From Romanomermis culicivorax (Eukaryota > Nematoda > Enoplea > Mermithida > Mermithidae), in contig CAWUHX010000073.1 of NCBI GenBank assembly GCA_963922205.1, forward strand, positions 124,001 through 188,000: a stretch of DNA of 64,000 nucleotides. The letters are read 5' to 3'. Numbering within the stretch: the stretch's first letter is position 1; each line of letters opens with the position of its first letter. Of the stretch, positions 39,565 through 46,733 are shown piece by piece. The notes under the pieces are model-generated. The model was not told the DNA's origin. It saw only the letters and a list, made by a program, of their open reading frames with translations, and did no database searches. A program made the translations under genes and the position numbers.

Positions 39565-39756
39565 TGTAACCCGTTTAGAATATCAAAAAGTAGAAAAACT
39601 ACAATTAACACTTTATGCTCTGAATTCCTTATCACATTTAATTTTATGCCCTAAATTCCAAATCAGAGATACGCCCTACTTCCTGTAAATATATTTTCTT
39701 TCTTTTTATAATAAAAGAGTTCCACCACAAAACGTGTTCAGGACCTGTACGCTTCA
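39565..39756 (+). repeat. 5' LTR of element B
   Basis: It starts TGTAAC and ends TTCA, with an AATAAAA polyadenylation-type signal near 39710. Short open frames across it are chance. TGGGTGGTCATC just after it (from 39760) may be the primer-binding site. Confidence 0.9.
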
Positions 39757-39922
39757 TTTTGGGTGGTCATCAAACTTTTTTACATATTGGATAGAATATA
39801 GTACCTATTGCAAAGTTTTGGACGATTAGTTTGTGATAATTTACATAACGTTTTCACCATTGTGGAATTTTGATGTCAACATCGATTTGGGACATATAGC
39901 AAGGACTTTTTCTAATAGTTTT

Positions 39923-40642
39923 ATGGTCAACACGAGGGACAACACTATGCAAGAGATTCGGGATACATTGGATGACATTCAACAGACTCTATCCAATCCG
40001 TGCAGAAACAAGCCATTTTCCCTTCCGACGCTCAGAGCTGATCAAGACTTCTTTCATGGTCGAACAGGCGAGAATTTCAATTTATGGTTGGATAGATTCA
40101 ACCGTTATGGTCAAGCGCAAGAATGGACGGACGATTATAAGCGTGCAATTTTGCCAACCTTCTTATGGGATGCAGCAGAAGTCATCTTTAACGGCATACC
40201 AATGGCGCAGCAAACAGCAATGACTTTTGAGCAATTAGTTACCATGTTGCACGCACGTTTTAGTCCAGCTCATGCTGCTGAGCTAAAAGCTTCGGAATTA
40301 CACAATAGACGACAGTTTCATGGCGAATCTATTTTAGATTATTCGGTCGTGATCCAGCAGCTAACAATGGAGGCATATTCCGATTTGACTGATGATGTGT
40401 GAAATACTCTTATGAAACGATTTTTCATTGCTGGACTTTCACCCGAAATTTGGAAGCTCGTTGTGTCCTGCAACCCGAAAACTTTCAAAGATGCAGAGTT
40501 AGCTGCCAGAAATGCTGAGGCGCAACTTCAACTTTTGAATGGACGAAATTGTCAATTCTCGATTCTTAACAATCCACCCCTCTTGATGAACAATGGGGGA
40601 TATCATCAACAACAGCAATCAAATGTGGTTCGCTCCTTTTAA
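39923..40642 (+). pseudogene. gag: Gag capsid region of element B, one internal stop
   Basis: The likely start is ATG 39923, giving MVNTRDNTMQEI; MVNTR is a common Gag start in Ty3/Gypsy elements. The open frame extends upstream to 39833. A retrotransposon Gag domain follows, with FNLWLDRFNRYGQAQEW, LHARFSPAHAAELKASEL and FIAGLSPEIWKL. TGA at 40400 interrupts it, and TAA at 40640 separates it from the zinc knuckle, which lies in the same frame. Both stops are single-base changes from sense codons, so Gag, knuckle and env were probably continuous. Confidence 0.8.
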
Positions 40643-42981
40643 AGATCATCAAGGGGCCCAGGAAAGAAGAAGCTCACCTTTGATCGCACTGCTGATGGTC
40701 GACCCATTTGTTTCAATTGTGGAATTCCAGGACATATTGCAGCACGATGCAACCACCCTCGGAAATCACAGCAATCAAGGAACAGAAACTTTAACAGAAA
40801 TCAACCAAACAATTGGACAACAATGAGAAATTTTTGCCCTTTTCAATATGGACAATGTCCATCAAAACAGTCAAGACAGCAAAGTGTCAATGCAGTTAAA
40901 ATTGAATACCCAAACAATATGGAACAATTGCAGTTTCAAAATGAGAATTTGAAAAAGCAAATCCAAACACTTGCAGAAATGATGAATGGCGCCTCATTGG
41001 ATACACAGCAAGACACCTCAAGCTATCTTCAGTCAACTCAAAATGTCATTTTTGCTTGTGGCGATAAAACAAAGAAAGAAGAAATAGATTTCAGCTCAAT
41101 TAACATCATGCAATCAGAAAAATTGGGTAAGCTAGAAAAGAAGTTCATCCCGCATGTGATCAATGCCATGGTGTTGTTGCTCTTTAGCTACATTATTTCA
41201 AGCCTGCCATCAGCTTTTGGTAATTTTGATTTTCAACAATGTGGTATTTCCCAATCTGGCCTTGCATATCATGTACCACAGGCTGTTAAATGCGTCCCAC
41301 CAGAAGCTGGAATTGTAATTGTTGACTCGGTTCAGTTATTTGTGCCCAATCACAGTCCTGCATTGCGCCTAGCATGGAAATGTTCAGCAAAAAAGTATAC
41401 AGTGTGTACAAACATTGGTATATTTGGATCCAAAGGTATCGTCTCATCTACAGAAATAGAAGTTCGATTGTTAGAAGCAGAATGCAGATCAATAGTTACT
41501 TTTCGTGTGTGGAATCAGGTGGAACTCACTAAAGTAAATGAACGGTTATATAAATCAAATGCAAACTTGGAACCAGAATTTATCTACTGTTGCCACAATG
41601 TCTGCAAATCCATAACAAAGTTGATATTGACAAAAGGCGAAGTTGGAACCTTCGATGGTAAAACCTTCATCAGTGACTTGGGTGATGTTTCAGGATGCAG
41701 AGCATCAAGTAACTTTTGTGACACTACGGGCGGAATAATTATTTGGCACAACGCCATTGAGCCGCCATGTGCGTTTAGACCAACAGAATGGTATGAATTA
41801 AAGCAAATGGATCATCACTCTATAATTCAGAAGATACAAGGTGCATTCACAAGGCTCCAAAACCGAAGTGTTGTTTCAATAAAGCCATGCTTGCCACAGT
41901 TTTTTATTATGATGGATCAAGGAGTTGCACTTGCTCCAAAAGATAAGTATACAATGTACAAGTTGGCCCCAGATTTAATTACGCCAAACAGAAGTGATCC
42001 AAAATTTCGTGTACTCATGGAAGCTAAGAATCGTCCGAGATGTCAAGTACCAAGTGGCAAGAATTCAACATTGGATCCAATCAACCTCAAATTACAGTAT
42101 TTAGAAGCTATGACAGAGCACATTAGGATCAATGAATTTCCTGAAGTTTGGCTCAACTTGTGTCATTCGGCCTCCACACAGTTGAAGATGATTTGGCAAT
42201 TTTTGCGATTGGATGCCACAGTAGGATCAAGAATTTTGTTCAACAGAAATGACATTTTTGCACGTTTTTTCGGTCAAGCTTTAATGGTATGGAAAGGCAT
42301 ACCCATTAAAATATCAAAGATTTACTGGGATTATAAAGTAAACAATGAATGCTACAAATTTCTGCCACTAGAAGATTTGTTTTTTTTCGCCTTGCTATTT
42401 TTTTCGCCTTGCCAGGAAGCACTGATATTGTGAAGTCGTCTCCACAACTTCCGTGCAATCAAGTTCAATCAGGATTCTTTTTCGATGAATTGGAGAGCCA
42501 ATGAAAAAGCACAAAGGGTCCTGTTCATGTCCAGAACTTACCAATGGAGATAATGTGGAAGAGCCACTATCCGACAGTCGTTTTCAATTCTCCACCTATC
42601 TTGCCAGAAATGTCGGCTGCTTTCACTGATAATTTAGCGATGTTGCAAGGAATGGTTTTGAACTTTGAACGCTTGGAAACTCAGTTTAATCATTTCGTTA
42701 ATGAGACAAGTCACACTGTTTTTAATCCAGAAGACCTGCAAAGATCTCTCAGAAGCATTAAAGAAGGAGCTACAACTTATATTGATAATCAAAAGAGCCT
42801 TTTCAGCTTCGTGACAACCGTCATGCATTTTTTCTCAACAGCAAAATTTCAAACAATTTTCAATTTGGTGCTGATAGCAGTTGCAGTCATTGATGTCTGC
42901 TACTGTTTTTCAATCATCTATCCATGCCTGAGAACGACTCTCAGTTTTTGCAAATGCTTGTGTTGCTTTTGCCGACTATAA
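40643..42981 (+). pseudogene. nucleocapsid knuckle plus env-like glycoprotein in one frame (element B)
   Basis: The open stretch 40643-42433 starts in Lys/Arg-rich nucleocapsid with CFNCGIPGHIAARC, a canonical CCHC knuckle (40709-40750). It continues through a heptad-like Leu/Gln segment (about 40920-40990) and a hydrophobic anchor or signal (VLLLFSYIISSLPSAFG, about 41170-41220). The Cys-rich ectodomain follows, with CGISQSG and SDLGDVSGC (about 41670-41698). A 17-bp tandem duplication at 42381-42414 changes the frame, and a TGA occurs near 42502. The frame 42544-42981 then holds the membrane-proximal part and anchor (VLIAVAVIDVCYCFSIIY) with a Cys-rich tail. The 17-bp duplication alone accounts for the frame change. 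TAA at 42979 separates env from pol, which is in the same frame. Confidence 0.8.
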
Positions 42982-45900: not shown

Positions 45901-46482
45901 TAGTGGAACGATTCAACCGAACTATTGCAGAGATGCTGTCAATGTACGTCTCAACCAATCAAGGTGATTGGCATGTTTTCATCCCCTATGCTCTCTTTGC
46001 CTATTGAATGGCAAAAAAACGAATCTACAGGCATCGAACCTTTTTATCTAATGTATGGACGCCAAGCAAATCTGCCAATCGATAGTGCATTGAATGCCAA
46101 AATAGACACAAGATACATGGACGCTGATGATTATTTGACAGCAGTGAAGCAACGACTGTCAACTGCTTGGGAAGTTGCAAAGAAATCATTGGACAAAGCC
46201 AAACGAAGTCAGAAGAAACAATATGATGCAAAAATGAAACCTCCACAATTCAACATTGGAGACATTGTCCTTCTATATCGTCCTGTTGTTTCAGTTGGAA
46301 AGAGTTCAAAGTTGATTCAAAAATGGAAAGGACTGTACAAAATAGTCGATCTACAGCTGCCAAATGCGAAAGTTGTGGACGTTCGAAAACAAGCTTGTTC
46401 ACCAACAACGGTTCATGTGAATCAGTTAAAACGATATTCTTTTGGCCTTGAAACTGAAGATGAAGACTCTGAAACTGAGTGA
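42982..46482 (+). pseudogene. pol: Pol of element B: protease, reverse transcriptase, RNase H, integrase
   Basis: The protease has an intact LVDTGAS site (about 43129-43149) and VVLGIDIL. RT has FCVDYRKLN and MPFGLCNAPTTFQ but stops at 44167 (TGA), 44236 (TAG) and 44413 (TAG), where a deletion removes the YxDD active site. RNase H has LQSDASGYG and NADALSR, but the usual Asp of the TDH box is Asn (YTNHAP). Integrase has the His/Cys finger (GHLGYRKT ... CLSCAG) and the DD-E residues in MVAVDILG, LLSDRGANF and DGLVERFNR. A frame change at 46005 precedes the C-terminal region with FNIGDIVLLYRP, KWKGLYKIV and VNQLKRY. Pol makes and integrates the cDNA; this copy cannot polymerise. ATG 43012 could start pol, or it may be reached by readthrough of TAA 42979. 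Confidence 0.88.
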
Positions 46483-46530
46483 TATTTTTTAAATTTGGTG
46501 TTGGTGTTTTTTGTATTTGTTTTTTCTATT

Positions 46531-46540
46531 GGGGGAGGAA
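46531..46540 (+). promoter_or_regulatory. polypurine tract of element B
   Basis: GGGGGAGGAA lies immediately before the TGTAAC start of the 3' LTR, as expected for plus-strand priming. Confidence 0.85.
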
Positions 46541-46733
46541 TGTAACCAGTTTAGAATATCAAAAAGTAGAAAAACTACAATTAACACTTTATGCTCTAAA
46601 TTCCTTATCACATTTAATTTTATGCCCTAAATTCCAAATCAGAGATACGCCCTACTTCCTGTGAATATATTTTCTTTCTTTTTTATAATAAAAGAGTTCC
46701 ACCACAAAACGTGTTCAGGACCCGTACGCTTCA
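46541..46733 (+). repeat. 3' LTR of element B
   Basis: It is about 98% identical to the 5' LTR, starts TGTAAC, ends TTCA and contains AATAAAA. Confidence 0.9.

Follow-up and report, generated by a model that had tools for sequence, protein, structure and literature searches.

A Ty3/gypsy-type retroelement lineage of the nematode Romanomermis culicivorax with a putative class III-type env between gag and pol, possibly translated as a Gag-Env-Pol polyprotein

A long terminal repeat (LTR) retroelement occupies positions 39565 to 46733, on the forward strand, of a 64,000-nucleotide stretch of the genome of the mermithid nematode Romanomermis culicivorax (GenBank assembly GCA_963922205.1, contig CAWUHX010000073.1, positions 124,001 to 188,000), referred to below as the window. 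This element comprises, from 5' to 3', an LTR, gag, an env-like frame, a pol region encoding protease (PR), reverse transcriptase (RT), RNase H (RH), and integrase (IN), a polypurine tract, and a second LTR. The 5' LTR (39565 to 39756), which begins with TGTAACC, and the 3' LTR (46541 to 46733) were delineated by comparison of the two repeats and by genome-wide LTR matches, and are 98% identical over a 143-nucleotide core and 97.4% identical over 196 bp. Directly 3' of the first repeat, a primer-binding-site-like stretch, TGGGTGGTCATC (39760 to 39771), can be read from the sequence. The capsid part of gag (39923 to 40402) ends with an in-frame TGA (40400 to 40402) that is spanned by the profile match (39935 to 40537), and is followed by the CCHC zinc knuckle of the nucleocapsid (40709 to 40750); the corresponding Pfam profiles are Retrotrans_gag (1.9e-5) and zf-CCHC (7.6e-5). 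A first hydrophobic segment detected by hydropathy (TM1, 41144 to 41200) precedes the N-terminal part of the Env ectodomain (41225 to 42433), which shares its frame (40643 to 42433) with the zinc knuckle. The C-terminal part of Env (42505 to 42978), frameshifted with respect to the N-terminal part, contains a second hydrophobic segment (TM2, 42865 to 42921) and is closed by a TAA stop codon (42979 to 42981). In the frame of this C-terminal part, pol opens with the protease (LVDTGAS, 43129 to 43149) and the start of RT (42982 to 44166), continues with the remainder of RT (YVDL at 44409), RNase H, and the zinc finger and core of integrase (44307 to 46004), and ends, in another frame, with the integrase C terminus (45904 to 46482), for which the SH3_Tf2-1 match was weak and under its cut-off. 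The pol profiles matched were RVP (2.1e-9), RT_RNaseH (1.7e-39), Integrase_H2C2 (2.8e-17), and rve (1.5e-7). The last pol frame stops at 46482, 58 bp short of the 3' LTR, and the polypurine tract GGGGGAGGAA (46531 to 46540, read from the sequence) lies directly before this repeat. These data bear out the sequence-only reading of the locus, which had described LTRs at both ends, gag, a two-anchor cysteine-rich glycoprotein-like frame, PR, RT, RNase H, and IN after that frame, and then a polypurine tract and LTR within 60 bp.

The window copy is broken at several places. Besides the TGA in gag, the env frame has a break between 42433 and 42505, the TAA at 42979 to 42981 splits env from PR, the RT frame is broken between 44169 and 44307, the integrase C terminus lies in a different frame, and the RT box reads YVDL versus YLDD in the five elements compared. 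No 4-bp target-site duplication was found by eye around this copy. A search of the whole assembly for LTR pairs like that of the window, which had been proposed as a check, gave eight matches; these fall in pairs on four contigs, each with RT of the window family as well, and correspond to four copies. Apart from the window copy, one of these (C296:113759-121103) is near-complete, with LTRs that are 95.96% identical, and displays the same order of gag, zinc knuckle, env, PR, RT, and IN. The C139 copy is split by inserted sequence, and the C104 copy, without gag and env, was classified as a deletion copy on spacing alone. As a separate observation made by eye, the sequence following the 5' LTR of C296 looks complementary to a tRNA over the 3' half of that molecule, T arm included, and this stretch is longer than a usual primer-binding site.

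The window family belongs to a large group. At least 150 relatives of the env C-terminal region (150 scored of 2263 first-look candidates) and at least 147 relatives of RT (147 scored of 7117) are present in the assembly, and among the matches listed, the RTs of scored relatives outside the family of the window are 46 to 54% identical to the window RT. At least 45 of the 147 scored RT rows lie in frames of 2400 amino acids or more, and at least 62 in frames of 2000 or more; one of the 45, a frame of 3612 amino acids, was rejected as a true frame on inspection, which was confined to fetched rows, because its length was inflated by a run of N. The window and the pieces designated L001 to L050 are free of N.

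Gene order was sampled at 20 RT loci, with the preceding 5.5 kb fetched for each; the loci come from rows 5 to 48 of the 147, which are the ones nearest to the window RT outside its own family. Env was detected upstream of RT in 18 of the 20 loci, at a near-constant spacing, and gag was detected by profile upstream of env in 11 of these 18. The two loci without env had no open frame of more than 250 amino acids and gave partial matches only to the PR-RT profile; they look truncated. Gag, env, and PR-RT profile matches occur in one stop-free frame within a single upstream piece in L033, L037, L042, L046, and L049. Ten elements, picked mainly for long frames or closeness, were also fetched in two pieces each, and in five of these (C202, C36, C67, C180, and C23) a single stop-free frame of 2465 to 2622 amino acids runs from gag through env and pol to IN. 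The pieces of C202 matched Ty3_capsid, Monjiviricetes_fusion (4e-14), RVT_1 (4.4e-35), RNase H, and integrase in Pfam, with the zinc knuckle under its cut-off and the aspartyl protease slightly under.

Errantiviruses and env-bearing gypsy elements place env after pol, and Retroviridae have the order gag-pol-env; env of this lineage sits instead between gag and PR. The pol frame ends about 50 bp or less from the 3' LTR in C202, C36, and C67, so that no space is left for env after pol in these elements, and about 290 bp from it in C23. An env C-terminal query gave no match past IN in the ten right-hand pieces and matched solely upstream of PR and RT. Intact copies with contiguous gag and pol, and env absent or after pol, were looked for among the copies of the window family, the sampled RT loci, and the fetched elements, and none emerged. 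Together, the sampled loci, the one-frame copies, and the diversification of the lineage seen in the trees described below indicate that the gag-env-pol layout is a feature of the lineage, as had been proposed from the window copy.

Searches of protein databases retrieved P0001 to P0008, of which P0005 and P0006 come from R. culicivorax and P0002 contains gag alone. P0008 combines gag, env, and protease in a single protein of 1500 amino acids, and P0007, which has a metagenome source, combines env, protease, RT, and RNase H in a single protein of 1424 amino acids. Gag and env are joined in one protein in each of P0001 and P0004, and P0003 is env. P0007 falls inside the lineage tree, beside C33, C36, and C67. 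With the env of C180 as the query, two R. culicivorax UniProt proteins were 64% and 50% identical over 27% of the query. Among public viral contigs, 22 pattern matches to env were obtained and none was confirmed; phage records gave no match. The window itself contains two further elements of this lineage. One, on the reverse strand (31713 to 35076), retains gag (35076 to 34498) and env (33119 to 31713), and no RT profile match was found for it in 28000 to 35600. The other, on the forward strand (818 to 4004), is decayed, with env (818 to 2464) and then PR-RT (2729 to 4004) distributed over several frames. These data bear on the possibility that the window copy owes its env-like frame between gag and pol to a chance rearrangement, with which its broken state and missing target-site duplication would agree. 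The same order is present in C296, env precedes RT in 18 of 20 RT loci, and P0007, P0008, and, as far as they are preserved, the two other window elements agree with this layout, leaving a negligible probability for this explanation, which the C296 order and the RT loci rule out. The window element is a decayed copy and not a chance rearrangement.

Comparison of the gag-pol gap product with models of viral glycoproteins, a further check proposed on the basis of the window sequence, gave positive results. The PF24664 Monjiviricetes_fusion profile matched six of six env members (best, 5.1e-18), and the other families matched among the same six were Borna G (four members), herpes gB (three members), and Phlebo_G2_C (one member, 0.0021). 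A profile built from the six members retrieved 10 PDB sequences at E up to 1 (best, 0.0021), nine of them labeled glycoprotein B and the tenth ORF8, which we take to be the gB of a gammaherpesvirus; a single env sequence gave no match in the PDB. On the assumption that the PF24664, Borna G, and herpes gB families are class III, these matches fit a class III-type fusion glycoprotein resembling those of Monjiviricetes or gB. Two structure predictions for env had a mean pLDDT of 44. In an alignment of sequences covering at least 231 of 308 profile positions, 16 cysteine columns were kept in 26 to 28 of 28 env sequences, the window copy included, and many further ectodomain positions were conserved. 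Env could have been kept for an intracellular role, such as anchoring of Gag at membranes or particle budding, with entry into other cells having been lost, and the fact that infection by these elements is only inferred leaves room for such a role. The cysteine columns and the other conserved positions nevertheless go beyond the needs of a membrane anchor, and we regard this explanation as unlikely.

Pol appears to be of the Ty3/gypsy type. Its domain order in C202 is PR-RT-RNaseH-IN, and the best PDB match of the C202 RT piece is the Ty3 RT/RH (7.6e-76), followed by 8r0s (1.1e-48) and 7kse (5.6e-37). LTRs and short target-site duplications, the latter expected to span 4 to 6 bp in Ty3/gypsy elements, were found in the lineage, the duplications being of 4 bp and the window copy being without one. 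The Pao peptidase family, which we assume to be included in Pfam, was not among the Pfam matches of the pol pieces, RT having been compared via solved structures and not directly with a BEL RT.

Of the ten fetched elements, six contain an identifiable LTR pair, namely, C296 and five others in which the two repeats are 99.81% (C202), 99.54% (C36), 99.44% (C67), 99.83% (C23), and 99.13% (C33) identical. The fetched pieces of C139a, C180, and C139b yielded no pair, and the repeat match in C283, 2.9 kb long, is not a simple LTR pair. Inspection by eye revealed 4-bp target-site duplications in six of the seven LTR pairs whose ends could be read (C296, C202, C36, C67, C23, and C33). The lineage includes young copies and was apparently active recently. 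Env has been under purifying selection in the one usable pair, C139b/C283, which combines an unsaturated and useful divergence (synonymous divergence [dS], 0.79; 367 codons) with a ratio of nonsynonymous to synonymous divergence (dN/dS) of 0.105; in other diverged pairs, either dS was saturated or env dN/dS was 0.06 to 0.12 with dS greater than 2.5. In C139b and C283 (L023 and L025), the silent sites of gag are saturated and those of env are not, a contrast possibly due to inter-family recombination at the gag-env junction.

Env has been inherited together with pol. Trees were built for env and PR-RT from 21 sequences covering 75% or more of each profile, all members of the lineage, and 15 of 18 splits were common to both trees (mean of 0.23 and maximum of 3 in 2000 label shuffles). 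In the L046, L048, L049, and L050 pairs, in which all three regions were measured at a useful divergence, env identity was slightly lower than that of PR-RT and well above that of gag. Independent acquisition of env by several unrelated elements might be considered in view of the depth of the clades, the RTs of which have the low identities to the window RT reported above. This scenario is disfavored, and we consider it very unlikely, since the number of common splits far exceeds that of the shuffled trees and env is found at the same place with the same cysteine pattern. Some of the shared splits lie within near-identical copies (C33/C36, L033/L035/L042, and L037/L038/L039), and the deep splits also agree (C139b plus C283 plus C202 plus C23, and C180 plus L046 plus L048 plus L049 plus L050).

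Profile-guided hydropathy placed TM1 before and TM2 after the env ectodomain, and the lysine and arginine residues flanking each segment were counted in rows with a segment over the hydropathy cut. Positive charges were more numerous before than after TM1 in 21 of 26 rows (four ties and one reverse) and more numerous after than before TM2 in 30 of 33 rows (three ties, with C296 counted twice). This distribution suggests that gag lies inside, env outside, and pol inside. The protease motif, where found, is located 71 to 138 residues past TM2. We propose, with a probability of roughly two in three, that a Ty3/gypsy-type lineage carries a class III-type env inside its gag-pol frame and produces it as a membrane-threaded Gag-Env-Pol polyprotein, a single chain being favored because of the continuity of the frame and the charge pattern at the two segments. 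The fuller proposal, a polyprotein that crosses the membrane twice, holds capsid, spike, and enzymes in one tethered chain until released by the protease, and belongs to an old, deeply diversified, and recently active lineage present in more than one genome, seems to us somewhat more probable than its negation.

Such a lineage would have gained its class III-type fusion glycoprotein in what was most likely a single event, with insertion between nucleocapsid and protease, and would have retained env at this mid-frame position through a long diversification. Translation from a single start codon would yield a polyprotein of about 2,500 amino acids consisting of Gag, a linker, TM1, the Env ectodomain, TM2, a second linker, PR, RT, RH, and IN. 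TM1 would act as an internal signal and anchor, so that Gag would stay cytosolic, the ectodomain would enter the lumen of the endoplasmic reticulum, and TM2 would bring the chain back to the cytosol for Pol. Both linkers would be cytosolic, and later interior to the virion, where the protease of the element could cleave them. Assembly of particles would occur at the membrane, with Env and Pol tethered from the outset, in a manner comparable to that of the structural polyproteins of alphaviruses or flaviviruses, and the particles, once released, could possibly enter and infect germ cells.

The main rival to this polyprotein retains the same architecture and has Env or Gag-Pol made separately, through a spliced Env-only RNA (starting at a Met near TM1 or at the gag start), removal of env as an in-frame intron to give Gag-Pol, or internal initiation. 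There is a nematode precedent, since Cer1 of Caenorhabditis elegans is reported to produce its additional protein, CERV, from spliced RNA (PMC10309623). In the present lineage, splice donor-like motifs are present in six of six elements, and acceptor-like motifs occur before TM1 in three of six and after TM2 in two of five. These motifs do not occupy shared positions, no conserved ones being found there in a small test that used consensus motifs. The Met residues near TM1 are likewise not conserved, C180, C202, C23, C283, C33, C36, and C67, among others, having none in the 40 residues before TM1. A spliced env, moreover, needs no frame match with both gag and pol. Ribosome skipping of the 2A type was rejected, the sole NPGP motif in the scanned translations being in one frame of the left piece of C296. 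Separate production appears distinctly less probable than a single polyprotein.

Several observations weigh against the polyprotein or limit its reach. In 13 of 29 rows, a Met is located no more than 12 residues from the TM1 start, and a separate Env start is possible in these rows. Polyprotein expression is deduced from genomic sequence, and the continuity of the gag-env-pol frame would equally fit an env that is at times removed or joined by splicing. An output of Gag, Env, and Pol at 1:1:1 would be unusual for a particle. A stop codon separates env from PR in two of three copies of the window family (TAA in the window, TGA in C296, none in C139), and the gag profile had no match in 7 of the 18 upstream pieces with env. 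The class III assignment rests on sequence profiles because the env structure models are poor. Close pairs gave env dN/dS values of 0.95 (C36/C33), 0.34 (L037/L038), and 0.23 (L033/L042), with too few changes to show selection.

Other features were noted elsewhere in the window. On the reverse strand, positions 10001 to 12844 hold an open frame of 948 amino acids with no significant match in Pfam or PHROGs, near which lie 106-bp direct repeats that are 96% identical (9301 to 9406 and 12800 to 12905). The genome contains one other full-length match to this frame, on the same contig, 95% identical and with one TGA. The last 30 codons resemble sequence at two places on C5, one on either side of an env-lineage match; these places are separated by 8.8 kb and share 99% identity over 601 bases. 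This region is possibly cargo or a non-autonomous element. On the forward strand, two frames at 36448 to 37600 resemble a viral or Polinton-type DNA polymerase B (the Polinton reading having been made by eye), the first with a weak Pfam match (0.073) and the second with none. Frames at 20550 to 23928, also on the forward strand, look by eye like a transposase-type gene with a zinc-finger part; in the portion searched, 22672 to 23925, there was no significant Pfam match.

No published description of env between gag and pol was found in a search that excluded Repbase and a 2025 survey of metazoan env (eLife 108449), and we do not claim priority because that survey lies outside the literature compared. 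The lineage would be a case in which a gypsy-type element captured a class III-type glycoprotein, and env inside the gag-pol frame would be another stable way to make spike and capsid together; if correct, a twice-threaded Gag-Env-Pol would provide a distinct route to an enveloped reverse-transcribing particle. Annotation that seeks env solely downstream of pol would miss these elements. In its host worm, a parasite of mosquito larvae, the lineage is abundant, young, and open-framed, and its expression, topology, and transmission are therefore directly testable.

Comparison with known systems places the lineage next to several elements that share some of its features. The Jingchuvirales glycoproteins found in arthropod genomes are of the same type as the env of the lineage and occur near Gypsy fragments, with one nematode clade comprising two cases, although, according to the authors, there is no clear sign that Gypsy or Copia elements have captured them (PMC10084718). 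Anakin, a Pao element of mosquitoes, is likewise an LTR element with a chuvirus-type glycoprotein, but it belongs to BEL/Pao; in Roo, Tas, and Cer-7, which are env-bearing BEL/Pao elements, the env-like protein lies downstream of the polyprotein (PMC7642597). Insect errantiviruses and env-bearing gypsy elements share with the lineage a gypsy pol and, in gypsy elements, type III fusion glycoproteins (PMC13172572). Cer1 of C. elegans is similarly a nematode Ty3/gypsy element with gag-pol uninterrupted by a stop codon and an extra protein, and the same report describes a separate, spliced mRNA as the source of retroviral env (PMC10309623). The hookworm Atlas virus (BEL/Pao, Belpaoviridae), also an endogenous element of a nematode, likewise encodes one polyprotein without internal stops, and a component of this polyprotein is a glycoprotein with relatives in negative-strand RNA viruses. 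Its order is Gag-Pol-Env, and it differs from the R. culicivorax lineage in that its env, a class II phlebovirus-like glycoprotein, comes last and its pol is of the BEL/Pao type (PMC9094657).

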